From: Lachnospiraceae bacterium
Lineage (GTDB): Bacteria; Bacillota; Clostridia; Lachnospirales; Lachnospiraceae
NCBI GenBank assembly: GCA_017614155.1
Contig: JAGACK010000056.1
Coordinates: 1 to 60,568, forward strand
Direction: 5' to 3'
DNA: 60,568 bases
Positions 1 through 28,900 of this stretch are shown one piece after another. The notes under the pieces were generated by a model. It was not told where the DNA came from. It searched no databases and worked only from the letters and a program-made list of their open reading frames with translations. The translations under genes were made by a program, and so were the position numbers. Every line of letters begins with the position of its first letter. The stretch's first letter is position 1.

Positions 1-3000
1 ACCACTGCAGGCTTTATCATTCCGCTTGTGTAGAAGCAGTAGGGATCTTCACCGTTTGCGTCACAGCTTACTATCACTCCGTCATCGGGATCGTTTGAGA
101 AGCCTACCGAAAGTTCTTCATCCCCGAGCTTTGTCCAGTTGGCGTAAAGCGTGAAGCTTGAGTTTACCGGTGTCGAAAAGTCATAGGACTGTTTGCACTC
201 CCTGTCTTTGTACCAGCCCTCGAACTGATATCCTGCTGCTATGGGATTTGCAGGTCTCGTGACTGCTTCGCCCTTTGTGACCTGTCTGTCTTCAGGCGCA
301 ACCTTTCCCTTTCCGTTCAGGTAGAAATGAACACACGCGATGTTCGGGTCAGCTTTGTCAGATATCTGAAATTTTAATTCTCTTTCACCACTGTAGCTGT
401 TTATACCTGTCAGGTATGCAGTTGCATTTCCGCTCAGGGTGTTATCAACGAAGGAAACTACGAAGTCCGTATCCTGGACAAGGGTCTTCCCTCCATCCTT
501 TACTATGACCGTCGGCTTTACGGGCCTTCCGGTGTATGCTGCTACAAACGGGTCAAGGTACGCCTCGAGTCCGTTGATATCAGTTCCTTTCTCATTGGTC
601 TTTCCGTTGAGGCTCACGGACTCAACCCTGACATTCTGAAGTTCGAGCTTTGATCCGTTCATCGCGATCACTGCATTCTGCTCGGAACCGACGCCTTTTC
701 CCGAAAGCTTCACTCCCTGGCTTCCCGCGCCTTCAATGTTGACCTCAAAGACCTGTCCTTCCTGAAGCGGCATCTCCACATTTTGTTTTTCTGCATTGAA
801 GGTTGCCTGGGATGCTGCTGTCTTCACGCTCATGACATTGGACCCTTCCATTGCAGCATAGGAAAGAAGTCCGCCGCTCTGATTCTTTATGGTCCTGTTT
901 CCCGAAGCTGAAGCATATACCCTCTGTTCAGGCTTTGCATTCGTATGATCTTTGAAAAGGCCCGTGCTCCTTGCGATGAAGCCTCCGTCTTCTCCAAGTT
1001 CCTGACCTGATGCGTTTTCTCCGTTTACAGTCAGCAGGTTGTTTCCGTTTGCATCTTCTATGCTGTATGCGTTATTGTCCACTACCATCGCGCGGCAGCG
1101 CAGCCTGCATCTGAGACGGCACCTCAGGCGGCATCTCAGACGGCATCTCAAACGGCATCTGAGACGGCATCTTAAGCGGCAGCGAAGTCGGCAGCGAAGC
1201 TGGGTTTCTTTGTCCTGTCCTGCCCATGATGTTCCTTCGCCGTTGGGGTTGTCATAGTTGTTGAAGTCTTGAACATCCTGATCCGACCATGGAGAAGTCC
1301 CACCTGTAAATTTATCGCTCTCTTCTTCATAGTAGGATTTATTAGCCTCATAATCATTATAGTCTTCGTCTGTCCAGTCCCAAAATCGATCTGACATCTG
1401 ATCGTCAAGATCAGACCAGTCAGTCTCACCTGCGCCGGGTTTTAAACTGTCCATCCATTCTTCCCAGTCTGCATCACCGAATTCATTCAGTTTGCCGTTT
1501 ACATGGTCTTTCCAAACCTGAGAATATATCTCATACGGGACACAGGTGATCGCACATCTGGGATCATCCGAACTCCAGTGAAATTCTGATTTATCATCAA
1601 CAAGATTATACTTCCAGCCCTTGTAGCTTCCGTCGGGATTTTTGGTAAACTCTATCTTCCTGTCTGTCAAAGGATAGTTGCTGTCGTAGATGTGAAGGTA
1701 ATTGGAGTCGGTTTCATTTATCTCAATATCATATCCCAAAACGGCATGTCCGCCCTGAGGACCGAAAAGCCCTATGATGACAGGCCTTAGGACACTCATC
1801 TGCTGCTGACCCTGTCCCTGTCCTATCGGTTCAAACATATTTTTTACTATCTCATCCGGAGTGGAATCGATGCAGAAGCAGTACTGCACCCTGTCGTCGT
1901 ACTGGGAGATCTGCATGGCTTCTATGAACTTCCTCAGATCCGTGCGAAGCTGAGCAGGATCATCATCGCTTGTATCACGATCTACGGGATAGGACAGATC
2001 AAACTGGTTTAAATACGCATCCCCTGATGCGTTTTCTCCTGTAAAATCTTTTCCTCTTATTCCCAGAGATGAGTCACCTGTTCCGTCCATTTTTGCGACT
2101 CTGAGAAGATTGCTTGTAGCTGACAAGCCAAAACAGCTTCCTCCCCACTCATCATCAAAAAAGCTGTACATAGCCCTGCCTTTGTCAGCACCGAAGAAAT
2201 CCTCGTAACGTTTTTCAGGAATGTTATAGTGCCAGTTTTCCTCGTATCCGAGGCCTGATCGTCCGTATGTATTTCCAAAGGGATACGAAAAACCGCATAT
2301 ATCTGATCCTGAGCCCGTAAAATATCCTACCGCTCCATTATCACCGTCTACAACTGCATAGGCAGAACTCACATGGCTGCTGTTATAAGGTGTGCCGTTT
2401 CCACCCACCAAAGAATCACATCCCTTAAATACATCACTTCCAGATCCTCTTTCGTTCCAGTTCCAGGTGGTATAAATGGTCTTCAGCTTGCTGCAGCCGA
2501 AAAACATTTCGTCAAATTCTATCCCGCTTGCACCGGTCAGATAAAACGCCGAAATATCCATGGACTCAAGAGAACTGCAGTTTTTAAACATCCTGTCAGA
2601 ATTAAAAGAGGTCGCTTGCCAATGCGGCAGCCTTACGCTCTTTAATGCTGTACATCCGTTAAACATGTCTGAATAACTACTGATACCGGAGGAAAAGTAC
2701 TTCATGTTAACATATTCAAGAGAAGTGCAGTTCATGAACATTCCACTGACATTACCTGTCGCAGACTCCGACCGTTGGAATAAAACATTTTTCAGAGATG
2801 AACATCCCTTAAACATATCAGACCAATCACCGCCCAAAAAGTAAATATTTCTGAGATCGGCAGTTTCCAGGGCTTTCATATCCTCAAAAAGACCGGATGG
2901 CGATCCGCTCATTTTTATTGATCTCTCTTCATCTTTTTTTTCAGCGCTGACTGACTTTATGCCGGAAGAGTTATCTCCAAATGAAAAGTCATTGTCTAAC

Positions 3001-3578
3001 CAAAACAACTCTGCAGCTAAACCGGAACTAATATCACTGGAAAATCCGGCCGTTTCCAGTTCGGCCTGCGTGAAGCTGGCCGGTATAACAACATCTGCAC
3101 TGCTACCGATGTATTTTTTTATTATAATATGCGTATTTGTATCCCAATCTCCAAGAGTGCCCGCATCACACAGCCAGCTCTCACCGTTGTGGACCACTGT
3201 TTTCCAGGTTGATTCATCTCCTGCCGGCTCTTCGGTCTTATTATCCGAAACCGCCTCTTCGGGAGCGGCATCCTCTGATACTGCCTCCTCGGGTTCGGGC
3301 ACTGAAGGTTCTGATACCTCATCTGTTGGTGCTGTCTCGTTTTCGCTTACAGGAGTCTGACCGGGATCTCCCGGATCAGTGTTCTCCTGCGGGTCCTCCG
3401 GCTGTCCGGGCACCTCATTTTGCTCCGGTGTCTCAGCCTTTGGCGTCTCTTCTGCCTGCTCCCTTGCAGCAGGCGCGGTATCAGCCGGAATCTCATCGGC
3501 AAATACAGTTGCGGAAAAGATCTGCATCAGCAGAAATACAACTGCCAGAAAACCTGCTATCCTGCGTTTGTGTACCAT
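1..3578 (-). CDS. Giant secreted LRR / papain-like / LRCR-array protein A (3' end outside window)
   Basis: The gene runs off the left edge, so only the first 1192 codons are visible. The start is the ATG at 3578, with AAGGAG eight bases upstream. In order I see a signal peptide (about 1-31, ending VFADE), an acidic Pro/Glu/Ser linker, BspA-type leucine-rich repeats of the MFxGCxxLxxxDL form (about 215-395), and a papain-like domain with Cys482 in GGSCFGLSA, His611 in GGHAVLGY and Asp632 in IYDSNYP. An acidic linker, nine LRCR units (794-829), a beta domain, a Listeria-Bacteroides repeat and the start of an MBG-like domain follow. The triad suggests a cysteine peptidase or transferase acting outside the cell. 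The family assignment is by motif only and the substrate is unknown. It is divergent from the plus-strand gene at 4059 and has its own promoter. Confidence 0.85.
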   Translation of the reverse strand, partial: MVHKRRIAGFLAVVFLLMQIFSATVFADEIPADTAPAAREQAEETPKAETPEQNEVPGQPEDPQENTDPGDPGQTPVSENETAPTDEVSEPSVPEPEEAVSEDAAPEEAVSDNKTEEPAGDESTWKTVVHNGESWLCDAGTLGDWDTNTHIIIKKYIGSSADVVIPASFTQAELETAGFSSDISSGLAAELFWLDNDFSFGDNSSGIKSVSAEKKDEERSIKMSGSPSGLFEDMKALETADLRNIYFLGGDWSDMFKGCSSLKNVLFQRSESATGNVSGMFMNCTSLEYVNMKYFSSGISSYSDMFNGCTALKSVRLPHWQATSFNSDRMFKNCSSLESMDISAFYLTGASGIEFDEMFFGCSKLKTIYTTWNWNERGSGSDVFKGCDSLVGGNGTPYNSSHVSSAYAVVDGDNGAVGYFTGSGSDICGFSYPFGNTYGRSGLGYEENWHYNIPEKRYEDFFGADKGRAMYSFFDDEWGGSCFGLSATSNLLRVAKMDGTGDSSLGIRGKDFTGENASGDAYLNQFDLSYPVDRDTSDDDPAQLRTDLRKFIEAMQISQYDDRVQYCFCIDSTPDEIVKNMFEPIGQGQGQQQMSVLRPVIIGLFGPQGGHAVLGYDIEINETDSNYLHIYDSNYPLTDRKIEFTKNPDGSYKGWKYNLVDDKSEFHWSSDDPRCAITCVPYEIYSQVWKDHVNGKLNEFGDADWEEWMDSLKPGAGETDWSDLDDQMSDRFWDWTDEDYNDYEANKSYYEEESDKFTGGTSPWSDQDVQDFNNYDNPNGEGTSWAGQDKETQLRCRLRCRLRCRLRCRLRCRLRCRLRCRLRCRLRCRAMVVDNNAYSIEDANGNNLLTVNGENASGQELGEDGGFIARSTGLFKDHTNAKPEQRVYASASGNRTIKNQSGGLLSYAAMEGSNVMSVKTAASQATFNAEKQNVEMPLQEGQVFEVNIEGAGSQGVKLSGKGVGSEQNAVIAMNGSKLELQNVRVESVSLNGKTNEKGTDINGLEAYLDPFVAAYTGRPVKPTVIVKDGGKTLVQDTDFVVSFVDNTLSGNATAYLTGINSYSGERELKFQISDKADPNIACVHFYLNGKGKVAPEDRQVTKGEAVTRPANPIAAGYQFEGWYKDRECKQSYDFSTPVNSSFTLYANWTKLGDEELSVGFSNDPDDGVIVSCDANGEDPYCFYTSGMIKPAV
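1092..1199 (-). repeat. LRCR tetrapeptide array of protein A (9 x 12 bp)
   Basis: Nine uninterrupted 12-bp units each encode Leu-Arg-Cys-Arg. The peptide is invariant, but the DNA uses five Leu codons (CTT, TTA, CTC, TTG, CTG) and CGC, CGA, CGT, AGA and AGG for Arg. Every Cys is TGC. The array is followed directly by AMVVDN, a junction shared in similar form by all the paralogues. Confidence 0.95.
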
Positions 3579-3668
3579 TTTGAATTCTCCTTGTTTCATT
3601 TTTCCCCCTCTATTTTTGAAAACAAAAATCACCACTATTTCGTTCCTTAGCTCTTCGCTCAATATCTT

Positions 3669-3698
3669 ATTATAACAATAATACCCCGAAATCATCAA
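3669..3698 (-). promoter_or_regulatory. Sigma-A type promoter of gene A
   Basis: Reading the minus strand, TTGATG (3693-3698) lies 18 bp before a perfect TATAAT (3669-3674). The predicted transcript would carry a leader of roughly 80 nt with AAGGAG before the ATG at 3578. The -35 box falls in the loop of the inverted repeat 3680-3713. Confidence 0.7.
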
Positions 3699-3713
3699 AT
3701 ATTTCGGGGTATT
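3680..3713. other. 13-bp perfect inverted repeat overlapping the gene A promoter
   Basis: AATACCCCGAAAT (3680-3692) and its exact complement (3701-3713) flank an 8-nt loop. It looks like a terminator hairpin but has no T-run on either strand and lies upstream of both divergent genes. It covers the -35 box and most of the spacer of the minus-strand promoter, so an operator is possible. No regulator is identified. Confidence 0.55.
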
Positions 3714-3722
3714 ACGACAAAA

Positions 3723-3750: not shown

Positions 3751-3770
3751 CTAGGCTGTTACTGTTCAGT

Positions 3771-5075: not shown

Positions 5076-5081
5076 AAAAGT

Positions 5082-6306: not shown

Positions 6307-6361
6307 AAGGATATCGGAGATTTACGGTACACGGTAACGGCTTTGAAGGAAAGGAAAAGTC

Positions 6362-7763: not shown

Positions 7764-10700
7764 TTACTTCTTATCTGCGACCTTTATACCCAGTGAACGC
7801 ATGATGTCTATGGGATCGAGGTTTTTGAAGTTTGCTGAGCCGATGGTAAACTTTGTGGTCCTGCTGCCGAAGGATGACTTTCCGTCTCCTGTCACGATGA
7901 GTGTCGCCTGGCCCTTGTTTTTGTTGTTCAGATACCCTACGCTGTAGGTCTTGTCATCGACCTTTATCCAGTCCTTGTCCTGCTTTACATAGACATCCAC
8001 AGCAGGCCTTACCGCCCTGCCTGTATAGGCCTGCGCGGGCAGGCTCTTCTTTGTAGGAGCTGCATCCTTTTCTATGATCTTTGCCTTTGAAAGATCTGCT
8101 GAACCTGCAGGAGGCAGCAGTACCAGATAGTCTGTCTGCGCCGGGCCTCCCGTGTACTTGCCCTTTCCTGTCACTGTCACCGTGATCTTCTTTGATGTCT
8201 CGCCTTCACCGAGCGAAAGATTCCCTTTAAGCTCCTCGCCTGCGATGTTGTAGGATACGTTGTAATCCTTCTTCGTGAGCATGGTATCCCCAATCATGAC
8301 ATAGGGTTCCGATCTGTACTTGCCGGGCTTCGTATAGATCATGTCGGGAGCGCTGACTGTCACATTTTTGAGCTCTGCCTGCTTTACGATAAATGCATCA
8401 CTCTTCTGCTTCTGTCCTTTATAGTTTCCAATGAAAGTTACCTTGTACTTTGCCTTCTTCTTTTCTGTGCTGATCTTTTTATTGTCCTTGCAGGAAACCT
8501 TGTAGTCCTTTCCTTTCTTCAGTGTGCGTCCCCCTGCTGTGACTGTAAGCTCGGGCACTGCTCCCTTAGGCGAGTATTCAGCTTCATCCTTTGCAGCTTT
8601 TACTGTCACATCAGACTTGCTGTCAGGCAGGATCCTGAAGGTCTTTGTCACTCTTCCTGTACATCCGTTTATGCCGGTCACTATGACCTTCGCCTTTCCT
8701 GCGTTTATGTTGTTTTTATATTTAACCTTATAATCAGTTCCTTCCTGAAGCGCTGTCCCATCCACGCTCTTTACTGCCAGGTCTGCGGCTTTCAGTTTCT
8801 GTGCTGCTCCGTTATAGTAGTATGATTTATTTACATCCTTTCCGAGCGTCACGCTGATCTTTGACTTGCTCATCTCCGCTTTGGTCTTTATCACAACAGG
8901 GATGTCCTTTATTTCGCCCGTAAAGTTCCCCTTACCCGTGATGGTAACCGTAGGATTATTTGCCTTGTCGGACTCCTTGAATTTCAGGCTTCCTGTAGAG
9001 CTTGTGATATCGTAATCACCTGTCTTCAGCTCATAATCGTTATAGCCGATCACCGGTTCGAGCTTCTTTCCTGCCTCGACTACCATTCCGCCTACAGTGA
9101 TCTCATCATCCGACAGCGAAAGCTTCTTCGGCACAACATAGAATGTCAGTTTCCTGCTCCCTGCAAAGCTTCCCTTGCCGGTGACTGTTACTTTGGCAGG
9201 GCTGTTCTCTTTTGATACCTTTGTATTGTTCTCGTACTTCAGGGTATAATCAACGCCCAGCTCAAGCTGCGTATCACCGTTTGTGACGATCACTGCAGGC
9301 TCGACCTTATGTCCGGTATAGACTGCTTCATTATGTCCGGTGGAACGGTTGTACACAGCGACCTCCCCGTCTGAAGGATCGTTTGAGAAGCAGACAGCCA
9401 TTCCGTCTATGGGTATCCACTTTGCATAGAGAGTGATATCGCTGTTTACTGCAGACGCAAAGTCATAGGCTTTTGTGCATTCCTCATCTGTAAACCAGCC
9501 GTCAAACTTCCAGCCTATGCCAATAGGGCTTGCAGGCTTTTCGACGGTCTTTCCCGTCTCTGCCAGTCCGTCTTCGGGCGCTGTCCTTCCATGGCCGTTC
9601 AGGTAGAAGTGGACCATCTTGTAGTGCTTTGTCACAGGCTCTTTTGTGATGGTAAACTTCAGTTCCCTGGATCCGGTGAAGGCTTCAAGACCGTAAACAA
9701 CGGCGCTTGCCTCGCCGGGCTTCACGTTGTTATTATAGGCTACTACATAGTCGCTTCCTTCCGTCAGGCGCTTTCCATCCTTTTCTACCGTAACGGCAGG
9801 CTTGATAGGTGTATCTCCTTTTGCCTCAAAGACATAGTCGTTCAGATACGCCCTGATGCCGTTTATGTCTTTTCCGTTGCCGTCATCTTCTTTTCCGTTC
9901 AGTTCGATGTTCTGAACTTCCACATTTGCCAGTTCAAGTTTGCCTCCCGAATTAAGCGTGATCTGTGCTCCCTCTCCTGCTCCGTTTCCGGTTCCCGAGA
10001 TCTGGACAGCCTTGTTTTCGGATACATCTCCAAGGTTTACTGAGAAGGTATCTCCGTTTCCGAGAGCTATGTTTACATTGTTTGTCTTCTTCTGTTCGTT
10101 TAATTCAACATCTGCCTTTGACGCCGTGGTCTGAACATCCATCAGCTTGCTTCCGTCCATCGCCTTGAACGAAAGTCCGCCGCTTTTGCTTATGACAGTC
10201 CTGTTTTCACTCGCAGATGTATAAACGGATTTTTTGCTTTTCTTTGTATTACTGCCGTCGGCAAATATCCCTGCTTCTCTTTGGATGAAGGTACTGCCTT
10301 CAGCTCCTTTTGCAATATCAGAGTTATCTCCGTTTACTGTTATCAGAGTTTTGTCGTTGTCATCCTTTATCTCAAAAGCCGAATTATCCACTCTCATGAC
10401 ACGGCATCTCAAACGGCATCTTAAACGACATCTTAATCTGCAACGCAGGCGGCATCTCAGGCGGCAGCGCAGACGACATCTTAAGCGGCAGCGCAGACGA
10501 CAGCGCAAACGACACCGCAGCATGACCTGTTGTTTTTCATTTTCATCAGTAATGTGACGATCCTCTATCTCCTGATCTGCCTGTCTTTGCGCCTCTGCTT
10601 CCAAAGCATTTTCAAAGCCCTCAGGATCATTGCTGTATTGGTCACAAATTGCTTTATCCGCGTCCTTATTTGATTCCAATGCTTCATCATTATATTCATC

Positions 10701-12747: not shown

Positions 12748-15700
12748 TTAATTACCTGCGATCTTTATTCCCAATGCGCGCATGATGTCTACCGGCTCCA
12801 TATCCTTCATGCTGGCTGAGCCGATGGTAAACTTCGTGGTCTTGCTGCCGAAGGATGACTTGCCGTCACCTGTCACGATGAGCGTAGCCTGACCCATGTT
12901 TTTGTTGTTCAGATACCCTACGCTGTAGGTCTTGTCATCAACCTTTATCCAGTCCTTGTCCTGCTTTACATAGACATCTACTGCAGGTCTGACTGCCTTT
13001 CCGGTGTAGGCCTGTGCGGGCAGGCTCTTCTTTGTAGGAGCGGCATCCTTTTCTATGATCTTTGCCTTTGAAAGATCTGCTGTTCCTGCAGGAGGCAGCA
13101 GGACGAGGTATTCTGTCTGCGCAGGTCCTCCCGTATACTTGCCCCTTCCGGTTACTGTCACCGTGATCTTCTTTGAGGTCTCGCCCTCTGTGAGGGACAG
13201 CTTCCCTTTCAGCTCCTCTCCGGCGATGTTGTAGGATACAATGTAATCCTTTTTCGTGAGCATGGTATCTCCCATCATGACATAAGGCTCCGATCTGTAC
13301 TTGCCCGGCTTCGTATAGATCATGTCGGGAGCGCTGACGGTCACATTCTTAAACACCGCCTGCTTTACGATAAATGCATCTTTCTTCTGCTTCTGTCCTT
13401 TATAGTTTCCGATGAAGGTTACCGTGTACTTTGCCTTCATCTTTCCGGTACTGATCTTTTTGTTGTCCTTGCATGAAACTTTGTAGTCCTTTCCTTTCTT
13501 CAGTGTGCGACCTCCGGCTGTAACTGTAAGTTCAGGCACTGCGCCTTCAGGCGAGTATTCAACTTCATCCTTTGCAGCCTTTACGGACACCTCCGACTTG
13601 CTGTCAGGCAGGATCCTGAAGGTCTTTGTCACTCTTCCTGTACAGCCGTTAATCCCAGTTACTATGACCTTTGCCTTGCCTGCGTTTATATTATTCTGAT
13701 ACTGGACCTTATAATCAGTACCTTCTCTTAAAGCCGTACCGTCCTTTCCTTTTACCGAAAGTTCAGCTGTCGAAAGTTTCTGCGGAGAACCGTTGTACAT
13801 ATGGGATGTGTTTATGTTCTTTGAAAAGGTTACGACAAGCCTTGACTTATTTATCTCAGCCTTCGTCTTTATTATCACGGGGATGTCTCTTCTCTCTCCG
13901 ATGAAGTTTCCCTTTCCCGTGACAGTCACAGTCGGATTTCCTGCCCTGTCGGATTCCTTAAAGGTCAGGCTTCCGGTTGAACTTGTGATGTCGTAATCCT
14001 TCGATGTCAGCTGATAATCTCCATAACCTATAACAGGTTCAAGCTTCTTCCCTGCCTCGACGACCATTCCGCCGACAGTGATATCTTCATCTGTCAGATC
14101 TTTTGCTGTAATGTAGAACTCCAGTTTCTTGCTGCCTGCAAAGCTTCCCTTGCCGGTCACGGTTACCGTCGCAGTCTTTCCGTCTTTTGAGACATTTGTA
14201 TTATTCTCATATTTAAGTGTGTAATCCTTATCCCTGACAAGCTGTTCATCACCGTTTGTCACGATCACTGCAGGCTCTGCCGCTCCTCCGGTGAAAAGCA
14301 TCTCATTATGTCCCGTTTCACTGTTGTAGATCGCGATCTGACCGTCTGCAGGATCATTTGAGAAGCTGGCTGCAAGCCCGTCTATAGGTATCCATTTGGC
14401 ATAGAGAGTGATGTTGTCATTTACGGCTTTATCAAAATCATAGGCTACGGTACATTTCTCATCCGTGAACCATCCGCCGAACTTCCAGCCTATGCCCATG
14501 GGACTTGCAGGCCTGGCAACAGTCTTTCCGGCTTCAATGAGTTCATCTTCCGGTCCCTTCCTGCCATGTCCGTTCAGGTAATAGTGGACCAGCTTATACT
14601 GCTTTGTGACAGCATCTTTTGTAACGGTGAATTTTAGTTCTCTCGAACCGGTATAGGCATCAAGTCCCTGAATGACCACAGAAGCCTGCCCGGGTTCAAT
14701 ATTGTTGTTATAAATGAGGACATAATCAGTTCCTTCTCTGAGCTGTCTGCCGTCCTTTTCAACATGTACAACGGGCTTGACCGGATTTACACCGTCACCG
14801 CGCACTTCATAATTATCCAGAAAAGCTCTGGCACTGCTGATATCCTGCCCTTTGCCGTCATCTTTTTTGTTGTTCAGCTCGATGCCCTTCACATCCACAT
14901 TTGAGATCTCGACTTCGCCTCCGGCTTTCAGGTTGATCTGCGCGCCCTCGGTTGCTCCGTTTCCGGTTCCGGTTATCTGGACCGCCTTGTTTTCGGATAC
15001 ATCGCCGAGCGTTACCGAGAATGTATCACCATCGCCAAGCGCAATGTTTATATTATTTGTTTTTGTCTCATCATTTATCTCAATGTCAGCCTTTGACGCA
15101 GTCGTCGTGACATCCATCAGTTTGTTGCCATCCATGGTCATAAAGGACAGTCCGCCATCCTTGCTCTCGACAGACCTGTTCTGGCTTGCCGATGTATAAA
15201 CAGCTTTTTTCTTCGGATCTCCGTTTCCGTCCTTGAAGATATTTACGCTCTTCTGAACAAATACGGTATCCTTGTACTCATCAGCGATCTCCGTAGATCC
15301 GTTGGTGACATCAACGATCGTATTTCCGCTGTCATCCTTCACCATATAATTAAGGCTGTCCACAAGCATTGCCCTGCAGCGCAGGCGGCATCTCAAACGA
15401 CATCTTAATCTGCATCTCAAGCGGCATCTCAAACGGCATCTTAATCTGCAGCGCAGACGGCATCTTAATCTGCAGCGTAATCTGCAACGCAGTCTGCAGC
15501 GAAGCTTTACTTCACTTATTTTCTGCGGATCCGTGATATGATTTTGTGATATCTCGGCCTGCGCTTCCTTCTCCCCCTGACTTTCGGCATAGGTGTCGGA
15601 AACACCATCAAGCGCCTGCTCAAAGCCTTCGGGATCATCCTTGTAGGTCTCGCAGAGAGCCTTTTCCTCTGATAGCGTCATGGCATCAAGGTCAGGATCA

Positions 15701-18554: not shown

Positions 18555-21500
18555 TCAATTTCCCGAAAATATCAGTTTCAGGATCTCGTCAAACTTTCTT
18601 ACTCCTATGGTAAAGGTTCCTGTCTTTGTGCCGAAGGCTTTTTTGTTGTCGCCGCAGATGATGATGGTCGCCTTTCCTCTCGATACATTGTTCAGATAGC
18701 TTACCGTATACGCCTCTTTCGGTACAGTCTCGTATGAAGATCCGACTTTGACCTTCACATCTATGGCAGGCTCTACCTCTTTTCCTGTGTAGTCTGCTTT
18801 TTTGAGCAGATCGTTTGAGCTCTGGGCATAGATATTCGCATCCGTCAGGTTGTAGGCTCCTTCGGGCAGCTTATTAACCGTGAAGCTTCCCGTGGCTTCA
18901 TCTTTGCAGCCTTTCTTTCCCGTGACCTTTACCGTTACGGTCGCAGGAAGCTCGCTGTCTTCAAATTTCGCTTTCTTCGTGATATCCTGTCCTCCCTTAT
19001 AAAGAGCGACCTTGTAGTTTCCGGGATCGAGCACGGTATCGCCCAGCTTCACAGTCATCCACGGCTCAAGCTTTGCAGGGCCCAGATAGACCATGTCTCC
19101 TGCTTTGACCTTTGCATCCTTAAGTGATGCCGCGCTGATCTCAAACTCGCCCTTTGCCTTCTTCCTGCCTTTGTAGTTTCCGATGAAGGTCAACGTATAT
19201 TTGGCATCCTTGCGTGGCTTGGTGTTGTCTTTGTATTTAACGGTATAATCAGCGCCTGCCTTCAGAACTGTTCCGTCCTTTTTTGTCACGACAAGCTTCG
19301 GTTCTGCAGCACCGGCATAGCAGTAAACTTCTCCCTTATCCTTCCTTTCGATATTTCCAAGCTCAAAGGTCTTGTCAGGATAGATCTTAAAGGTTTTTGT
19401 CACCTTTCCATAATAAGAGCCTTTGCCCTGTAGGGTAACTTTTGCGACACCTGCATTCTTGTTGTTGGAATAGGTCACGCTGTACTGGCTTCCGCTCTTC
19501 AGCACATTTCCTTTTCCGTCCTTTACTATGAGCTCTGCATCCGTTAACGTCTGCTCTGCGCCATTATAGACCTTTGGCGTAGTGATCTTTACTGCAACCT
19601 TGATCTTGTGCTCCCTCATCTCCTGCTTTGTCTTTGCGATGATCGGGACGCCTGTTATCTCGCCCTCAAAACTTCCCTTGCCACGTATGGTAAATGTGGT
19701 AACTTTTCCTGCAATGAGCTTTTTCGGGTCTGTCTCAAAGTCGGATGATGTCAGCACATAGTCGCCGTAAATAATGGTCACGGAAGCCTTTGTGTTGTTT
19801 TCTGCGACAACAGGTTCGACTACTATGTCTTTGTCTGCTATGTTCTTTTTCTTTATGACAAACTCCATGGTCTTGCTTCCCTTGAAGTTGCCCTTCAGCG
19901 TCACGGTGGCTGTTGCCTTTTTGCTGCCTGTCGTGACTTTTTTGTTGTTCTTGTAGGTAACCTTGTAGTCAATGTCCTTCTTCAGTACTTTGCTGCCAAA
20001 GGTCACATACATTTCAGGCTTGATCATCGAGCCGGTATAGAAGCAGTACGGATCGGTCCCGCTCTCATCGCATCTTACGATCACTCCGTCCGAAGGGTCG
20101 TTTGAAAAGCTCACAGCCAGGGTATCGTCACCAAGGTTCTTCCAGCCTGCGTAAAGAGTCATGTTGTCTTCAACCGGTGATGAGAAATCATAGGCTTTTG
20201 TACATTCTCTGTCTATGTACCAGCCGTCAAACTGATAACCGGCAGCTATGGGATTTGCAGGTCTTGCGATAGTCTTTCCTTTTTCGATCAGGACATCCTC
20301 GGGTGCGATCTTTCCATGACCGTTTAAGCAGAAGTGGACCATGCGAAGATCATCCCTTGCCTTGTCTGCAATGGTAAACTTTATCTGCCTTTCTCCTGTA
20401 TATGTTCCTATTCCTTTGATATAGACACAGGCATTTCCGCTTTCGGTATTATCGACATATGAAAGCACAAAATCGGTATTCTCGGTAAGTGTTTTGCTTC
20501 CGTCCTGCACATGCACTGCAGGCTTGAGTTTCTGTCCTGTATATGCGACCACATAATTATCAAGCCAGGCCTTCAGACTGTCTACATCTGTGCTCCTGCC
20601 CTCTTTGTTTTCACTGTTCTTTCCGTTGAGGCTCACAGTCTCGACCTTGACATTCTGAAGTTCAAGCTTAGTGCCGCTGCTGTTCAGCTTTATCTCGGCA
20701 TTTTCCTCGTTTCCTGCACCTGTGCCGGAAATTTCAGCTGAGCCGCCTCCGGCCTGTGCCATCTTTATGGAGAATGACTCTCCCTCTTTTAACGGGATGC
20801 TGATGCTGCCCTCCCCGCCTGCATTCTTTTCATTTCCGAGCGCAAAGCTTGCCTCGGCAGCCTGGGTCTCGACTTCCATTGCATTTAGGCCATCCATCGC
20901 CTTGAAGGATACTCCTCCGCTGCTGCTTTTAATTACCCTGTTTGATGAGGCAGGGGTAAATACGGCCTTCTTCTGGTTTATCGTCTTTGGCCCGATTGCC
21001 GTTATCCTCTGCTCGAATCCGGAGTCTATGCTTGCGGGATCAAGATTTCCATTCTGTACATCAACAAGCTTATTTCCTTCTTCATCACTGATGCTGTAGG
21101 ATGGATTGTCCACTATCATCGCGCGGCAGCGCAGACGGCATCTGAGGCGGCATCTGAGACGGCATCTGAGACGGCATCTGAGGCGGCATCTGAGACGGCA
21201 TCTGAGACGGCATCTGAGGCGGCATCTTAAGTTTGCTCTGTTGATCTCATCATCTGATGTATCAGTCGGCCACAGTACTGCCAGCCTGTTTTCGTAACCT
21301 TCAGTATCTTCATCATACTGACTGAAATTTGTTTCATAGTCTTCACTGTATCTATCAGCAAACATCATCCTGCAGCGAAGTCTGCAGCGAAGGTTGGTCT
21401 GCCATCCATCTTCAGAGCCTTCAGGGTAAAGTGCTTTTATCGCTGATTCAAAGGCTGCCTGATCGCCACCGATGTCTGTATACAGGTCATCTGCTTTCCT

Positions 21501-24500
21501 GTCTGCAAAAGCCATGCGGCAGCGCAGACGACAGCGAAGGTTTGCTTTCTTTATCTCATCACTTCCGGAATTTGGCCACAAACTGTCGACCGAACTGTTA
21601 AAATCGCTCATTTCACAATCCAGAGACTGAGCTTCTGCTTTCTTTTCTGCATATATCATGCGGCAGCGCAGACGACAGCGAAGGTTTGTTTCAAGGATTT
21701 CATCATTGTCATCTGAACTATTGCCAAAACACTCAGTAAGGAAGCTTTCAAGCGACTCAGGAGTAGTATCACTGTTGATATTTGTTTCTATATCTTCCTG
21801 ATTCTGCAACAGCCTGCAGCGGAGCCTGCATCTTAAGCGACAGCGCAGATTTGCCCTTTGGATCTCATCACTTCCCTCGTCCGGCCATAACTGACTAAGC
21901 CTTTCCTCAAAATCAGAATCTTCCCTATTCTGATATTCTTTGCTTATCTCTTTTGAAAGTTCCTCATAATACATGATCCTGCAGCGCAGACGGCAGTCTT
22001 CATTTCCCGGAAACTTTTCATTCAGAGCTTTTTCATATTCTTCTTTACTGTCATTTTGATGCGCGACAAAGAATGCAACCTCCTCCTTTGTCACTTCATC
22101 TATGCTGCCATTATCGTTTACATGCTGAAGATCCTCATCAAAGGCATCGATCGTGTCCAGATAGCTTTCCAGGAGCTGATCATCAGAGGCCTGATCGGTA
22201 AGTATAAGCTCATCAAGACTTGACCATGTATCATTATCAAACAGAAGTTCCCACAGTTTTTCAGCCCATTCTCCCGAATCATAATTTCCGCGGTCCTTCC
22301 ATACCGCCGAGAACACTTCATAAGGGATATAAGTCAGAACACAATTATCTGCATCAGCGGTATCGGTCCCCCAATGGATCCTGTCGCTGATATCATAATG
22401 CCAGCCTGTCACAGTACCGTCAGGCTCCGTGAGCAGTTCGATCTTTTTGTCCTCCGCCGGCCAGTTGCTGTCATAGACATGAATGGCAACGGGCGTTCCT
22501 GAATACATGGAATCCGAAACAATTCCTTCCTCCGTCCGCTCGACATCGTAGCCAAGCACCGCATGACCTCCCCCAGGACCGAACATACCGATGATCACCG
22601 GTGTTTTGATTTTTTGCCCATCATCAATGTTTTCTATCGCCCGGACTATCTCCTCCGGAAGGGCATCAAGGGAATAACAGAACTGTACTCTCTCGTCATA
22701 CTGAGCGATCTGCATGGCTTCAATGTATTTGCGAAGATCTTTATAAAGCTGTTCCTCTTTGTCATCAGATGTATCCCTGTCCACCGTTGCCGGAAGCGAA
22801 AGGTCTATGGGGTGCGAATTTGTACTCACGCCAAAACCGGCTATGGAGGGTATTTCTCTCTCACCCTGCTTTATGTCGGCTTCTTCATTGAACATACCGC
22901 TGGTCGCAGAAAGCCCGTAACAGCTTCCGCCCCACTCATCATCAAAGAATTTGAATATGTTGCTTCCCCTCTGTTCGCCGTAGAGTTCCTGATAGCGCTT
23001 CAGCGGGATATGATAATTCTCGTTTTCCTCATATCCGAGGCCGTTCTGACCGTAGGTATTGATGAAGCTGTAGGTATAATCCTTTACATGATCAAACCAT
23101 TCAGAAGTCCCTGAAAAGTATCCCGGTTTTCCGTCTAGTCCGTCAACCCGGGCATATATCCAGTCATTCCTCTCTACATCCTTTTTGTACACGGTCCCCT
23201 GGGAACCCGTGATAGCTGTGCATCCTGAGAACATTTTGTAGGAGCCGCCTGCATTTTCTTCAGTAAAGCTTGTTCCCTCACGGACATATATCGTTTTCAG
23301 TTTTTTGCATTGATCAAACATCCAAAAAGCTCTTGTGGCAGTCGAAAAATCAAAGGCAGTCAGATCAAGCTTTTCCAGAGATGAGCATCCGGAAAACATG
23401 TATTGCAGGCTGTCAGGCTTGATGGTATCCCTGCCAAACATCACATTTTTCAGGGCCGAGTCGCCGGCAAACATCGATGCCGTGTCCACTTTTCCCCCCT
23501 CTTTTGCAAATCTCACATTTCTGAGATCCACAGTTTCCAGACTGTAGCAATGAATAAACATACCGCCGGCATTTCTGATCGTAATCGGCTCATTAACAGG
23601 GCTTCCAAGGGTTACTGACTTCAGTGAACTGCAGTTTTCAAACATGTTGACAAAATGATAATCCGGATTCCCCGGAGTGATCGTTCCTTCCGGTTTTTTG
23701 ATCCCGCTAAGGTCCAGATTTTCAAGACTTGTACAATAATAGAACATATACTCCGCCGTACAGGATATCGGCAGAGAACCAAGTCTGAGATCCTTTAATT
23801 TATAACACTGATAGAACATATTCTTTGTCGTATAGATATTGTTAAAGCTCAGGCCGTGCAGATCAACAGTCTCAAGCTGCGAACAGCCGTTGAACATACC
23901 GGACAGATCACCTTCCACAAGGTGGATCCCTCCCCAGTTATCATACGGCTCTTCACCGATTTTTTCTCCGAAAACAGCGCTCTCCAGCGCAGAACAGTTT
24001 TTGAACATATCGGCCATGCCCCATACCCGGGAAAGATCCAAACCTCTTAAGTCCGCGCTTTTAAGGGATGTACAGCCATCAAACATATTCCGCATATCAA
24101 CAGCGTAGATCTTGTCTTTTATCTCCGGTCTGTTCACGCTCGCACTCCCGAAGGTTATGCTCTCCAGTTTGGCGCATTTGGAAAACATGCTTGAAAAGCC
24201 TTTATTATTGATAAACTTAACATGGCTGAAATCCAGCTCCTTTAAGGCATAGCAGTCCTGAAACATACAGGACAGACTTCCCTCAAGACACGATCCATCG
24301 GGAATCTTGACTGTTTCAAGAACAGGGCAGTTATAAAACATGTTCGTAGGCTCTCTGATCCCCATGGGCGATGTCCCAAAATCAACCGCCTTCAGTTTAT
24401 GACAGCTGATGAACATCGATGTGAATTCAGCTTTATATTTGTCCATATCATCAGGGGAAACAAAAGTAACCCCCGAAAAATCCACATTTTCCAGACTTTC

Positions 24501-25868
24501 GCAGTTCCGAAACATCAATCCTGCATCCGTTATCACCGCTCCGGCAGGAAGCACAGCCTCCTCAAGGGATGAGCATTCATTAAAAACACCCGACATACTT
24601 ACGGTTTTATCACCGGATAGTGTCAGGCCGGAAATATCAGCACTCTTCAGATTCGACATACCACTGCAGATTCCCAGCAGATTCGATGTTGCAGACACAA
24701 CACCCGGCATGATCTTCAGAGAAGTTATCTGCTCTCTTTTATCATAAAACAGAGTTGATCTCGAGTAATAACTATCTATCGGATTATCAAGCTTAACAAT
24801 GCAGTCAGGATAAGTCACCCCGTTGTTTTCATAATCCATTTTAGCGGGTATCACGACATTTGAGCTTTCTCCGACATATTTAGTCAGCGTCAATGTATTG
24901 CTTCCGGAATCATAGGAACATTCCCAATCCTGAAAAGTCGCAGGCTCCCCGTCATCAGCTGCAGAAGGCATGTCTGCTACATCGGTAAAATAACCACTTT
25001 CAGTCTCTCCCTTATCTATACGGGCATAGTTTGCTGTGATCCCAAGGGCAGTATCAGTGTATGTCGTGCCCGCACCGCCCACGAGAGCTGCGCAGTTTTT
25101 AAACATATCCGTAGAAGGACTTGCGTAGGTCATATTAGATTTGTTACTGTTCACATAGATCGTTTTTAACAGCGAACAATCCTTAAACATATATTGACAT
25201 CCATTAATGACATTAGTCAGATCCAGTTTGCTGATATCGAGAACTTTCAGCGACGAACAACCTTCAAACATGGAGGTTGTCTTTTTCAACCCCCAGTTTG
25301 CTGCACAATCGGGAAGTGTTACCGATTCCAGAGCACTACAGCCATAAAACATACTCGCCGCATTGCTGAGATCCTGGTCTTCCTGCGTGACCAGTCCACT
25401 GAGATCTGCTGTTTTCAGACTCGTAAAGTTTGAAAAAGCAGCACTAAAATTGGCTCCTGAATATAAGCTCACACCCGGCTCTATCTTTATCGAAGTAACC
25501 TGAGAATATGTGACAGGATTGCTTCCGCTGAAAAGATTATTAAATGGTATACCCTTGATACCGACAGGATAACCATCAACTGTAGACGGAATGACAACAT
25601 CGGTTGAAGTGCCCGTATATCTGTAAAGATAGATCACTCCATTATCAGGTTCAGCTGCAAATGTCCACCCGTCCTTTTCGGAAGTACCTGCCGGCGTTTC
25701 CGTCTCATCCTGTGATACTGAAGGGACGCTCCCGTCTTCCGGGATCGGTTCAGAAACAGGCACGGCATCCTGCGAAATCTCTTCCGCAAAAACCATTCCC
25801 GACAACGACTGCGTCACAAGTGATGCAGTTAACAATATCGTCGCCAGTTTCTTTCTTCTCATTTTCAT
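18555..25868 (-). CDS. Giant secreted LRR / papain-like / LRCR-module protein D (largest)
   Basis: At 2437 aa this is the largest protein here. The start is ATG 25868 (MKMRRKKLATILL), chosen over an in-frame start 27 bases upstream because AGGGGG lies just before it. After the signal peptide and a short acidic linker it has a very long set of BspA-type repeats (about 120-890; dozens of MFxxCxxLExxDL units) interrupted by YFTDV-type segments. The papain-like triad is Cys983, His1102 and Asp1133. Residues about 1292-1582 form a helical zone with LRCR groups every 49-55 residues (1.5, 3, 2, 2 and 2 units) and a final 9-unit array (1547-1582). A Listeria-Bacteroides repeat (about 1873-1906) and MBG-like domains finish the chain, which ends KLIFSGN without a wall anchor. 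It sits 41 bp after gene E and is its closest relative. Confidence 0.88.
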   Translation of the reverse strand: MKMRRKKLATILLTASLVTQSLSGMVFAEEISQDAVPVSEPIPEDGSVPSVSQDETETPAGTSEKDGWTFAAEPDNGVIYLYRYTGTSTDVVIPSTVDGYPVGIKGIPFNNLFSGSNPVTYSQVTSIKIEPGVSLYSGANFSAAFSNFTSLKTADLSGLVTQEDQDLSNAASMFYGCSALESVTLPDCAANWGLKKTTSMFEGCSSLKVLDISKLDLTNVINGCQYMFKDCSLLKTIYVNSNKSNMTYASPSTDMFKNCAALVGGAGTTYTDTALGITANYARIDKGETESGYFTDVADMPSAADDGEPATFQDWECSYDSGSNTLTLTKYVGESSNVVIPAKMDYENNGVTYPDCIVKLDNPIDSYYSRSTLFYDKREQITSLKIMPGVVSATSNLLGICSGMSNLKSADISGLTLSGDKTVSMSGVFNECSSLEEAVLPAGAVITDAGLMFRNCESLENVDFSGVTFVSPDDMDKYKAEFTSMFISCHKLKAVDFGTSPMGIREPTNMFYNCPVLETVKIPDGSCLEGSLSCMFQDCYALKELDFSHVKFINNKGFSSMFSKCAKLESITFGSASVNRPEIKDKIYAVDMRNMFDGCTSLKSADLRGLDLSRVWGMADMFKNCSALESAVFGEKIGEEPYDNWGGIHLVEGDLSGMFNGCSQLETVDLHGLSFNNIYTTKNMFYQCYKLKDLRLGSLPISCTAEYMFYYCTSLENLDLSGIKKPEGTITPGNPDYHFVNMFENCSSLKSVTLGSPVNEPITIRNAGGMFIHCYSLETVDLRNVRFAKEGGKVDTASMFAGDSALKNVMFGRDTIKPDSLQYMFSGCSSLEKLDLTAFDFSTATRAFWMFDQCKKLKTIYVREGTSFTEENAGGSYKMFSGCTAITGSQGTVYKKDVERNDWIYARVDGLDGKPGYFSGTSEWFDHVKDYTYSFINTYGQNGLGYEENENYHIPLKRYQELYGEQRGSNIFKFFDDEWGGSCYGLSATSGMFNEEADIKQGEREIPSIAGFGVSTNSHPIDLSLPATVDRDTSDDKEEQLYKDLRKYIEAMQIAQYDERVQFCYSLDALPEEIVRAIENIDDGQKIKTPVIIGMFGPGGGHAVLGYDVERTEEGIVSDSMYSGTPVAIHVYDSNWPAEDKKIELLTEPDGTVTGWHYDISDRIHWGTDTADADNCVLTYIPYEVFSAVWKDRGNYDSGEWAEKLWELLFDNDTWSSLDELILTDQASDDQLLESYLDTIDAFDEDLQHVNDNGSIDEVTKEEVAFFVAHQNDSKEEYEKALNEKFPGNEDCRLRCRIMYYEELSKEISKEYQNREDSDFEERLSQLWPDEGSDEIQRANLRCRLRCRLRCRLLQNQEDIETNINSDTTPESLESFLTECFGNSSDDNDEILETNLRCRLRCRMIYAEKKAEAQSLDCEMSDFNSSVDSLWPNSGSDEIKKANLRCRLRCRMAFADRKADDLYTDIGGDQAAFESAIKALYPEGSEDGWQTNLRCRLRCRMMFADRYSEDYETNFSQYDEDTEGYENRLAVLWPTDTSDDEINRANLRCRLRCRLRCRLRCRLRCRLRCRLRCRLRCRLRCRAMIVDNPSYSISDEEGNKLVDVQNGNLDPASIDSGFEQRITAIGPKTINQKKAVFTPASSNRVIKSSSGGVSFKAMDGLNAMEVETQAAEASFALGNEKNAGGEGSISIPLKEGESFSIKMAQAGGGSAEISGTGAGNEENAEIKLNSSGTKLELQNVKVETVSLNGKNSENKEGRSTDVDSLKAWLDNYVVAYTGQKLKPAVHVQDGSKTLTENTDFVLSYVDNTESGNACVYIKGIGTYTGERQIKFTIADKARDDLRMVHFCLNGHGKIAPEDVLIEKGKTIARPANPIAAGYQFDGWYIDRECTKAYDFSSPVEDNMTLYAGWKNLGDDTLAVSFSNDPSDGVIVRCDESGTDPYCFYTGSMIKPEMYVTFGSKVLKKDIDYKVTYKNNKKVTTGSKKATATVTLKGNFKGSKTMEFVIKKKNIADKDIVVEPVVAENNTKASVTIIYGDYVLTSSDFETDPKKLIAGKVTTFTIRGKGSFEGEITGVPIIAKTKQEMREHKIKVAVKITTPKVYNGAEQTLTDAELIVKDGKGNVLKSGSQYSVTYSNNKNAGVAKVTLQGKGSYYGKVTKTFKIYPDKTFELGNIERKDKGEVYCYAGAAEPKLVVTKKDGTVLKAGADYTVKYKDNTKPRKDAKYTLTFIGNYKGRKKAKGEFEISAASLKDAKVKAGDMVYLGPAKLEPWMTVKLGDTVLDPGNYKVALYKGGQDITKKAKFEDSELPATVTVKVTGKKGCKDEATGSFTVNKLPEGAYNLTDANIYAQSSNDLLKKADYTGKEVEPAIDVKVKVGSSYETVPKEAYTVSYLNNVSRGKATIIICGDNKKAFGTKTGTFTIGVRKFDEILKLIFSGN
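21123..21230 (-). repeat. LRCR tetrapeptide array of protein D (9 x 12 bp, homogenised)
   Basis: Nine LRCR units. Seven consecutive units are CTC AGA TGC followed by CGT or CGC, so this array is almost uniform at the DNA level, unlike those of A, B, C and E. It looks recently expanded or converted. Confidence 0.95.
21369..21995 (-). repeat. Spaced LRCR modules of protein D
   Basis: Short LRCR groups lie at 21369-21392 (2 units), 21516-21539 (2), 21660-21683 (2), 21813-21848 (3) and 21978-21995 (degenerate, CRLRCR). Each is followed by a helix-like stretch such as MAFADRKADDL or MIYAEKKAEAQ and preceded by a LWPxxxSDEIxxAN segment. Group-to-group spacing is 144-165 bp, or 48-55 residues. Confidence 0.9.
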
Positions 25869-25909
25869 AAAAAACCCCCTGTAATGAACATTCACTGTCT
25901 CAACCGGTC

Positions 25910-28900
25910 TCAGTTTCCTGAAAAGATCAGTTTAAGGATATCCTCAATCTTCCTTACACCTATGGTAAAGGTTCCTGTCTTTGTTCCGAAAGCCTTTTTA
26001 TTGTCTCCGCAGATGATGATGGTAGCCTTTCCTCTCGATACATTATCAAGATAGCTTACGGTATAGTTTTCAGCAGGCACGGTCTCATATGTGGATCCTA
26101 CTTTAACCTTCACATCTATGGCGGGCTTCACAGCCTTTCCGGTGTAATCCGCTTTCTTTAAGAGTTCGTTTGAACTCTGGGTATAGATCTTCGCATCTGT
26201 CAGATTGTAGGCTCCTTCCGGTAGCTTATTAACCGTGAAGCTTCCCGTTGCTTCATCTTTGCAGCCTTTCTTTCCCGTGACCTTTACCGTTACGGTCGCG
26301 GGGAGCTCGCTGTCTTCAAATTTTGCCTTCTTCGTGATATCCTGTTCTCCCTTATAAAGAGCAACCTTGTAGTTTCCGGGATCAAGCACGGTATCGCCCA
26401 GTTTCACAGTCATCCACGGCTCAAGCTTTGCAGGGCCCAGATAGACCATGTCTCCTGCTTTGACCTTTGCATCCTTAAGGGACGCCGTACTGATCTCGAA
26501 CTCGCCCTTTGCCTTCTTCCTGCCTTTGTAGTTTCCGGTGAAGGTCACCGTATATTTGGCATCCTTGCGTGGCTTGGTGTTGTTTTTGTATTTTACGGTA
26601 TAATCAGTGCCTTCCTTCAGCACGGTGCCGTCCTTCTTTGTCACGACAAGCTCCGGCTCTGCGGCGCCGGCATAGCAGTAGACTTCTCCCTTGTCCTTCC
26701 TTTCTATGTTTCCAAGCTCAAAGGTCTTGTCAGGATTGATCCTAAAGGTTTTTGTCACTTTTCCATAATAAGAGCCTTTGCCCTGTAGGATAACTTTTGC
26801 GACACCTGCATTCTTGTTGTTGGAATAGGTCACGCTGTACTGGCTTCCGCTCTTCAGCACATTTCCCTTTCCGTCCTTTACGATAAGCTCTGTATCTGCA
26901 AGGGTCTGCTCTGCTCCGTTGTAGACCTTGGGCGTAGTGATCTTTACTGTGGCCTTGATCTTGTGCTCCCTCATCTCCTGCTTTGTCTTTGCGATGATAG
27001 GGACGCCTGTTATCTCGCCTTCAAAGCTTCCCTTGCCCCGTATGGTAAGTGCGGCATCCTTTCCTGCGACAGGCTTTTTCGGGTCTGTCTCATAGTCGGA
27101 GGATGTCAGCGTATAGTCACCGTAAATAATGGTCACGGAAGCCTTTGTGTTGTTTTCCGCCACAACCGGTTCAACTGTGATATCCTTTGCAGCTTTTCCG
27201 GTGCCGTCGCCAATGTTCTTTTTCCTGATGACAAACTCCAGGGTCTTGCTTCCCTTGAAGTTGCCCTTCAGCGTCACGGTGGCTGTTGTCTTTTTGCTGC
27301 CTGTCGTGACTTTCTTGTTGTTCTTGTAGGACACCTTGTAATCAATGTCCTTCTTCAGGACTTTGCTTCCAAAGGTCACAAACATTTCAGGCTTGATCAC
27401 AGATCCGGTATAGAAGCAGTACGGATCGGTCCCGCTCTCATCGCATCTGACGATCACTCCGTCTGAAGGATCATTTGAAAAGCTCACAGCCAAAGTGTCG
27501 TCGCCAAGGTTCTTCCAGCCTGCATAAAGCGTCATGTTATCTTCGACTGCGGCCGAAAAATCAAAGGCTTTTGTGCATTCCTTATCCGTGTACCATGCGT
27601 CAAACTGATATCCTGCAGCTATGGGGTTTGCAGGCTTTGTGATTGTCTTCCCCTTTTCGACAAGGACATCCTCAGGCGCTATCTTTCCATGGCCGTTTAA
27701 GCAGAAGTGGACCATACGCAGGTCATCTCTTGCTTTGTCGGCTATGATAAACTTTATCTGTCTTTCGCCTGTATAGCTGCCTATTCCCTTGATGTAAACG
27801 CAGGCATTTCCACTCTCGGTATTATCGACATAGGAAAGGACATAATGCGTATTTTCTGCGAGATTACTATTTCCATCCTGTACATGCACGACAGGCTTGA
27901 GCTTCTGTCCGGTATAGGCGACAACATAGTAATCAAGCCAGGCCTTCAGGCTGTCCACATCTGTATTGTTTCCTCTTTTGTCCTCGCTGCTCTTTCCGTT
28001 TAATTCTACAGTCTCGACCTTGACATTCTGAAGCTCAAGCTTAGTGCCGCTGCTGTTCAGCTTTATCTCGGCATTTTCCTCGTTACCTGCACCGGTACCC
28101 GAGATCTCCGCCGAGCCTCCTCCGGCCTGAGCCATCTTTATGGAAAAGGTCTCTCCCTCCTTTAACGGGATGCTGATGCTGCTCTCTCCGTTTGCGCCTT
28201 CTTCGTTTCCGAGGCCGAAGTTTGCTTCGGGAGCCTGGGTCTGAACCTCCATGGCATTTGCGCCATCGAGAGCTTTGAAGGATACTCCTCCGCTGTTGCT
28301 CTTTATGATCCTGTTGACGGAAGTCGGCGTGAACACTGCCTTCTTCCGGTTTACTGCCCTGGGACCTATGGCTGTTATCTTCTGCTCAAATCCCGAATCT
28401 ACAGTCGCCGAAACAAGGCTTCCGTTGTTCACATCAACAAGCTTATTCCCTTCCGCATCGCTTATGCTATATGAGGAATTGTCCACTACCATTGCCCGGC
28501 ATCTGAGTCGGCAGCGCAGGCGGCATCTGAGACGGCACCTTAAGCGGCAGCGCAGACGACAACGAAGGCGGCATCTTAAGCGACAGCGAAGGCGGCAGCG
28601 AAGGTTTGCCTCTTTAACCTCATCGTTTCCTTCTTCAGTCCAAATATTAGACAGTCTGTTTTCGTATCCTTCAGGATCGTTTTCAAAGGAACTGAAGTTT
28701 AACTCGTAATCCTGCCCGTATCTGTCTGCAAACATCAGCCTGCAGCGCAGACGGCAGCGCAGGTTGGTCTTCATCGTATCATCGGAGCCTTCGGGATAAA
28801 GAGTTTTGATCGCATCATCAAAGGCCTGAGGATCACCCTTGTGCTCATTGTAAAGGTCCGATGCCTTGCGATCAGCAAAAGCCATGCGGCAGCGCAGGCG

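Follow-up and report, generated by a model that had tools for sequence, protein, structure and literature searches.

Five giant secreted proteins encoded in the window (the whole 60,568-nucleotide stretch of Lachnospiraceae DNA analysed here) each carry an uninterrupted array of the tetrapeptide LRCR. What do such arrays do, and what keeps a four-residue word identical throughout them?

LRCR arrays in the window

The five arrays reported in the first-pass annotation were recovered in frame, with the same boundaries and with perfect units only (Table 1). That annotation had missed the four or five short arrays present in each of D and E, the two longest proteins of the window, as well as two further LRCR-array genes elsewhere in the genome, on contigs C21 and C48. 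A degenerate LRCR-LRCR pattern gave 74 matches in this genome and the same pattern reversed gave 0, indicating that the arrays are not due to chance. An assembly artefact is unlikely, as arrays of the same word are also found in genomes G026, G029 and G099.

Table 1. Arrays, host proteins and neighbouring genes in the window
Feature	Position	Strand	Details
Protein A (cut by window end)	3..3698	-	peptidase-like domain 1512-2369, array, stalk; LRR-like region by eye
Long array, protein A	1092..1199	-	9 x LRCR
Protein B	7764..12689	-	1641 aa; peptidase-like domain 10851-11708; List_Bact_rpt (PF09479)
Long array, protein B	10401..10520	-	10 x LRCR
Protein C	12748..17610	-	1620 aa; peptidase-like domain 15886-16671; PF09479
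Long array, protein C	15373..15504	-	11 x LRCR
Protein D	18555..25895	-	2446 aa; peptidase-like domain 22299-23156
Long array, protein D	21123..21230	-	9 x LRCR
Short arrays, protein D	21369..21989	-	between acidic stretches; 2, 2, 2, 3, 1 units at 21369-21392, 21516-21539, 21660-21683, 21813-21848, lone unit 21978-21989
Protein E	25910..32515	-	2201 aa; LRR_5, DUF285 above cut-off; peptidase-like domain 29696-30568; PF09479
Long array, protein E	28496..28603	-	9 x LRCR
Short arrays, protein E	28739..29386	-	between acidic stretches; 2, 2, 2, 3, 2 units at 28739-28762, 28886-28909, 29042-29065, 29201-29236, 29363-29386
HD-GYP-like protein	32512..34431	-	4-base overlap with start of E; co-occurs with array genes
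Peptide ABC transporter	36130..41909	-	SBP_bac_5, two ATPases, two permeases; upstream of HD gene

As had been proposed, each array adds a charge of +18 to +22 to an otherwise acidic protein; minus their LRCR units, the five proteins have net charges of -69 to -122, the value for A being that of the partial protein. Cys residues, on the other hand, are not the rarity that was claimed, since these proteins harbour 16-42 additional Cys outside the arrays. No best Pfam or NCBIfam stretch fell on the array in the three of the five window proteins that were scanned (B, C and E), which supports the view that it is an undescribed domain. A PF16078 match close to an FRLR array was below the cut-off and was taken as chance.

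Array words in other genomes

In other genomes, homologues have an array in the corresponding position, built from a different word, namely MRCR, FRVR, FRLK or FRLR. The 26 array genes comprise 12 with LRCR, 4 each with MRCR, FRVR and FRLK, and 2 with FRLR. Each gene uses one word for its long arrays, short arrays and lone units alike (388 of 396 units exact), and the 8 deviating units all belong to one near-copy gene pair (in G015 and G023, representing one gene), which tolerates YRMR, YRIK and RYMK units. From the first to the last unit plus 80 residues on each side, we found only 9 alternating tetrads that depart from the word, and a single near-copy pair accounts for 8 of these. The units follow the formula [L/M/F/Y]-R-[C/V/L/I/M]-[R/K], position 2 being Arg throughout the counted units and position 4 either Arg or Lys. 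Long arrays range in size from 6 units to at least 16. Short arrays are absent from A, B, C, the C21 and G099 proteins and one G026 protein. MRCR-MRCR was found in 2 of the 10 array genomes tested, both without an LRCR-LRCR match, and G015 has both FRVR and FRLK genes, the latter being a possible binning error.

Scanning a named genome collection for four consecutive LRCR units yielded at least 111 stretches. At least 5 of them, in three Lachnospiraceae genomes (RGIG2871, SRR8387714_bin.49 and RUI304), have at least 6 codon-varied units in an open frame of >500 aa; these were rejected as extra genomes, being by sequence the same contigs as G099, G026 and G029. Among the matches listed, other runs of at least 3 LRCR mostly were copies of one 12-mer or lay in short frames. 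Viral contigs contained 106 LRCR stretches, none with 6 or more units. Weak peptidase-like matches were also found elsewhere in the order, and the eight of nine such loci that were read showed no tetrapeptide repeated three or more times in tandem.

Selection on the peptide

Between adjacent LRCR units, half of the codons differ and none of the amino acids do. Altogether, 239 adjacent unit pairs (LRCR, MRCR, FRVR and FRLR) showed 0 amino-acid differences with 33-56% of codons differing, and the near-copy genes of protein A and contig C21 have accumulated 8 synonymous and 0 amino-acid changes over 36 array codons. As codons vary yet amino acids are fixed, the word is held at the protein level, under very strict selection.

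Between genes of one genome, the DNA of LRCR units is no more alike (0.710) than between genomes (0.708), and copying therefore does not explain the shared word. MRCR units are more alike within G012 (0.840) than between G012 and G045 (0.788). For the part of the genes behind the array, grouping the MRCR genes of G012 and G045 in one clade was rejected (p-AU 2e-44), as it was for both parts joined (2e-5), but not for the part in front (p 0.07). Outside the arrays, two alignment columns co-vary with the word, which is not beyond chance (80 of 600 random four-row sets reach this number).

Amphipathic pattern and charge

The alternation of hydrophobic and Arg/Lys residues persists through all word changes, and the array lies behind an acidic linker. 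Using a hydrophobicity scale, we obtained strand moments of 1.5-1.8 and helix moments of 0 for nine units and 0.15-0.39 for two units. The first-pass annotation had envisaged a beta strand with one basic face. The strand-like alternation with a single Arg/Lys face is indeed kept in all words; however, in the sole AlphaFold2 model (10 sequences), the array of protein C (395-438) is drawn within a helix (387-436), with pLDDT <50 over most of it (405-436), so that the model says little about conformation.

The negative charge of the acidic linker grows with the charge of the array (Spearman 0.91 for 25 of the 26 proteins; 0.76 within 13 short-linker proteins; 0.33, not significant, within 11 long-linker proteins), the p values being too small because the proteins are related. 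This scaling fits the proposal of an internal clamp for the linker, in which the array would dock on the latter.

Host proteins and gene neighbourhood

The array separates a Cys-His-Asp peptidase-like domain from a stalk, and its hosts are putative BspA-like surface proteins. The domain precedes it in 25 of the 26 array proteins, i.e. those with the GGHA site in view. The motifs GSCYG, GGHAVL and YDSN occur in this order, with Cys, His and Asp conserved where in view (alignment A1 and motif check), and these ordered, conserved Cys, His and Asp/Asn residues make the domain a candidate papain-like cysteine peptidase. It has no best Pfam or NCBIfam stretch in B, C and E, and its best PDB match by sequence is at chance level (E 0.71), i.e. 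no solved relative was found. The structure model is of low confidence in this part, which the structure comparison barely touched. In four homologous proteins devoid of array (G233 and G418), a short linker joins the peptidase-like domain to the stalk.

LRR_5 (PF13306) scored above the cut-off of 27.7 bits in E (33.5 bits) and also above cut-off in L300, but below it in B and C; no match is listed for L309 and L268. List_Bact_rpt is above cut-off in the stalks of the scanned B, C and E (44.9-55.9 bits), and no wall-anchor family was reported in six array proteins scanned.

The gene overlapping the start of E, a candidate of the HD-GYP type, has an HD domain (PF01966, 25.5 bits, cut-off 22) and matches PDB 4mcw over 467-605 (E 1.4e-12), with some HD-GYP motif letters differing. 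No signal-like start was seen by eye. Among 48 genomes, 9 have both this gene and peptidase-like matches, 36 have neither, and 1 and 2 have a single one of them; across the wider bacterial family, the HD protein is present in 10 of 397 genomes, 7 of which lack a peptidase-like match. Homologues of the peptide transporter adjoin the G099 array gene. The transporter is likewise a neighbour of the HD gene in L327, L328 and L329, whose visible part has no array gene.

Possible roles of the arrays

Two explanations can largely be set aside. The first-pass annotation proposed, among other roles, disulfide or metal crosslinking by a ladder of Cys residues, and each unit does contain a Cys in 16 of the 26 array genes. 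The other 10 (FRVR, FRLK and FRLR) have no array Cys, with array position and overall architecture unchanged; cysteine is thus dispensable and such crosslinking fails as a general role, which makes it the least probable reading. Slippage and conversion might instead make and homogenise arrays of little function, in line with their variable length, with the excess of identical unit pairs over a codon shuffle (77 versus 49) and with the recombination junctions that fall at or close to the array in 2 of the 7 profiled pairs. Homogenisation would nevertheless wipe out the synonymous differences that abound here, and the word is kept in single and double copies in unique context; turnover at the DNA level is already disfavoured and appears very improbable.

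Binding of the Arg face to anionic wall polymers, plant-wall uronic acids or nucleic acid is a putative role that accords with the invariant Arg, the basic position 4 and the lack of reported wall anchors, but it does not need a uniform hydrophobic word, and the acidic linker already supplies the counter-charge; we consider it quite unlikely. The array might also be a run of cleavage sites for the preceding domain, the protein cutting itself or its paralogues and freeing the stalk or short peptides, which the neighbouring transporter could import. Papain-type enzymes favour hydrophobic-Arg (L-R, M-R, F-R, V-R) as P2-P1, and the position and conserved motifs of the domain and the transporter genes beside array genes in the window and G099 are consistent with this. 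However, one or two sites would be enough, leaving 9-11 identical units and scattered copies unexplained; the domain also exists without array, has no solved relative by sequence, and the transporter occurs beside HD genes with no array gene in view, so that processing seems unlikely. Hardly more likely is recognition in trans, whereby one receptor, wall polymer or enzyme per genome would read the word, and paralogues would share it. Behind the array the word tracks the genome rather than the gene lineage, LRCR units are as alike between as within genomes, and the HD-GYP-like gene co-occurs with peptidase-like matches. Yet the front part does not reject a single MRCR clade, which, with the junctions at or near the array, means that the front half may simply bring its word along. 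In addition, MRCR units are more alike within G012, G015 may combine two words, and the HD protein lacks a signal-like start by eye and, in the wider bacterial family, mostly occurs without peptidase-like matches.

We tentatively favour, from the sequences, a putative cationic amphipathic pairing segment. Its Arg/Lys face would dock on the acidic linker, either within one molecule or between neighbours, and its hydrophobic face would pack on other such arrays; arrays both short and long, and perhaps paralogues, might thereby zip together at the cell surface. Every unit could then pair with every other, which would explain both the uniform word in scattered copies and its replacement as a whole. 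The array may be a clasp for the peptidase-like domain and stalk, or link molecules into fibres. Pairing is favoured by the absence of amino-acid change, whole-word replacement, the strand moment, charge scaling and the short linker of arrayless homologues. Against it stand the helix of the low-pLDDT model, the weak long-linker correlation, six proteins without short arrays to pair with, the inability of an all-cationic array to self-pair without counter-ions, the lack of word co-variation outside arrays beyond chance, and one gene that tolerates deviating units. With less confidence, the word may be seen as a protein 'password': each array protein of a cell would carry it at all of its scattered sites, self-pairing or a partner would read it, and evolution would replace it whole, such that array proteins of different species could not join.

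Relation to known systems

BspA-type LRR surface proteins (LRR_5, DUF285 (PF03382) and List_Bact_rpt) provide the probable host architecture of several array proteins, but these families do not match the array, acidic linker or peptidase-like domain, and the scanned G099 and G004 proteins have no LRR_5 match. C-H-D peptidase-like folds include the papain, C39 and transglutaminase types; the motif order is shared with them, while the domain described here has no Pfam or significant PDB sequence match and its activity is putative. Amphipathic beta peptides, self-assembling or antimicrobial, show the same hydrophobic/cationic alternation. Such peptides are short, designed or host-defence molecules, whereas the runs found here span 24-64 residues inside giant bacterial proteins. 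The C-terminal heptads of RNA polymerase II are likewise tandem short words under protein-level selection. The array differs from them in sequence, compartment and partners, and we know of no whole-word switch between close relatives for those heptads.

Tandem repeats usually either drift or get copied at the DNA level. In these arrays the DNA diverges freely while the peptide word remains exact, and related species show another word in every scattered copy, a combination that calls for a checking mechanism and points to a putative, strictly checked code for binding or assembly. LRCR, MRCR, FRVR, FRLK and FRLR form a natural, cleanly varied series of bacterial amphipathic cationic segments.

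Tandem arrays of a four-residue word

Five LRCR arrays of 9, 10, 11, 9 and 9 perfect units, a unit being one copy of the word, are confirmed on the minus strand at the places given in the first-pass annotation, one in each of the giant proteins A to E. Two consecutive units are matched 74 times in this genome (2.64 Mb), against none for the reversed pattern, and the matches are spread over seven genes, five in the window and one each on two other contigs (C21 and C48). Short arrays, each one to four units long, are also found in protein D, protein E and the C48 protein, separated by acidic stretches of approximately 40 residues. The array was given no name by Pfam or NCBIfam in scans of proteins B, C and E, and none of the papers listed in literature searches dealt with it. 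Other features of the window are included in the table.

Arrays and other features of the window
Feature	Positions	Strand	Observation
Part of the gene of protein A	1-1199	minus	Near-identical to the C21 gene (L269) behind the array, strongly different ahead of it
LRCR array	1092-1199	minus	9 perfect units
LRCR array	10401-10520	minus	10 perfect units
LRCR array	15373-15504	minus	11 perfect units
LRCR array	21123-21230	minus	9 perfect units
LRCR array	28496-28603	minus	9 perfect units
HD-GYP-like gene	32512-34431		Long, uncharacterised N-terminal part; associated with a peptide transporter operon and, in several genomes, with array genes
Gene of another large protein	42087-45509		Big_2 and PF09479; array absent; transglutaminase-like match below cut-off
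9-base tandem repeat	45590-45645		GGAGACAGG, perfect, 6.2 copies; located upstream of the large-protein gene at 42087-45509
Radical SAM/SPASM gene and adjoining sulfatase gene	53784-56897		Likely a sulfatase-maturing pair

Word usage within and across genomes

With a profile of the peptidase-like domain, homologues were recovered from 10 of 48 genomes of the genus, and array genes total 26 in 10 genomes. The word switches between them: LRCR is also found in G026, G029 and G099, MRCR in G012 (three genes) and G045 (one), FRVR in G015 (four), FRLK in G015 (one), G008 (two) and G023 (one), and FRLR in G004 (two). MRCR pairs are present in two of the 10 array genomes tested, both devoid of LRCR pairs. 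G099 is the only array genome found outside the genus in a domain-profile search of 397 family genomes (334 genera), which is blind to arrays in proteins without this domain. Four more distant homologous proteins, from G233 and G418, lack the array. Its alternation of hydrophobic and basic residues and its place in the protein are maintained, and charge scaling was observed, within limits.

For four of the five words a first tally could, by its design, register only exact copies; a recount therefore took in other alternating hydrophobic-basic tetrads as well, across the span of the units and 80 flanking residues on both sides. It yielded 388 exact units and nine other tetrads. Four of these (YRIK, YRMR twice and RYMK) occur in each copy of a 2518-residue FRLK gene near-identical in G015 (L305, contig C150) and G023 (L308, contig C110), which reflects either recent transfer or one contig binned into two metagenome assemblies; the ninth, LKAK, lies directly ahead of the first array in a G012 gene. 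The exact word is thus strictly kept, in 388 of 396 array units. Short arrays lie at corresponding positions in LRCR and MRCR proteins, as in protein E (2, 3, 2, 2, 2 and 9 units) and a G012 protein (contig C66; 2, 3, 2, 2, 2 and 8 units), so that about 20 scattered first residues all differ between them. The number of short arrays varies somewhat among other members. On a smaller scale, F-type proteins of G015 and G004 combine an array, a double copy and a single copy with one word throughout, and those of G008 an array and a single copy of one word.

Codon variation

The array is not a simple DNA repeat. In 132 pairs of adjacent LRCR units, 53% of codons and a mean of 3.2 of the 12 bases differ, yet the amino acids are always the same; 74% of random base changes would replace a residue. 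Codon differences reach 33% for MRCR (58 pairs), 56% for FRVR (33 pairs) and 42% for FRLR (16 pairs), again with no amino-acid difference; the 28 differences in 63 FRLK pairs are due to the YRMR and YRIK units of the near-copy gene. In the close pair A and C21, whose identity along a 900-base stretch behind the array is 95%, the array shows eight synonymous and no amino-acid changes. In six other pairs, Nei-Gojobori counts gave 4-10 'nonsynonymous' steps within arrays, which are path effects arising where arginine codons change from AGR to CGN, since the translated arrays are identical.

For all words, the share of CGC among Arg codons is 0.20-0.40 within arrays and several-fold lower, 0.03-0.09, elsewhere in these genes. 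In LRCR arrays an AGR codon tends to have CGN as the next Arg codon and vice versa (odds ratios 0.27 and 0.17), and FRVR arrays show this in one of the two neighbour relations; the within-unit relation is opposite in MRCR arrays (odds ratio 8.4), and the test was uninformative for FRLR. Synonymous variety itself may thus be selected for, because it benefits translation or counteracts slippage. Identical units exceed those of a codon shuffle (77 against 49), indicating that some units were duplicated as DNA; adjacent units are no more alike than shuffled ones.

Putative role of the array

The disulfide or metal crosslinking proposed in the first-pass annotation cannot be a shared role, since 10 of the 26 array genes have no Cys in the array. 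In our preferred but tentative reading, in which conformation, pairing and function are inferred, the array might be a cationic amphipathic pairing segment that would dock both on the acidic linker and on other arrays of its kind. A single AlphaFold2 model, of protein C, draws it as a helix, with pLDDT under 50 over most of it. Among the next choices, recognition of the word by a partner in trans appears rather unlikely, and it is slightly less likely still that the array serves the peptidase-like domain as a processing ladder.

Inheritance of the word

With array words removed, a single clade of the four MRCR genes was rejected (p-AU 2e-5), strongly so for the rear part alone (p-AU 2e-44); it was not rejected for the front part alone (p-AU 0.07). 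Of seven gene pairs profiled block by block, two are clear mosaics. The G026 (contig C154) and G029 (contig C15) genes share 82-100% identity per block ahead of the array and 68-86% behind, and A and the C21 gene mostly 38-85% ahead and 93-100% behind, with the switch approximately 60 bases before the array. LRCR units are as alike in different genes of one genome (0.710) as in different genomes (0.708), so DNA copying of arrays between genes is not the cause for this word; for MRCR, the likeness of units is somewhat greater within G012 (0.840) than between G012 and G045 (0.788). As the two mosaics show, arrays can lie at the junctions where heads and stalks have recombined. Given these mosaics and the front/rear tree split, the word may be tied to the genome, or it may move along with the front half, with rear halves being exchanged at the array.
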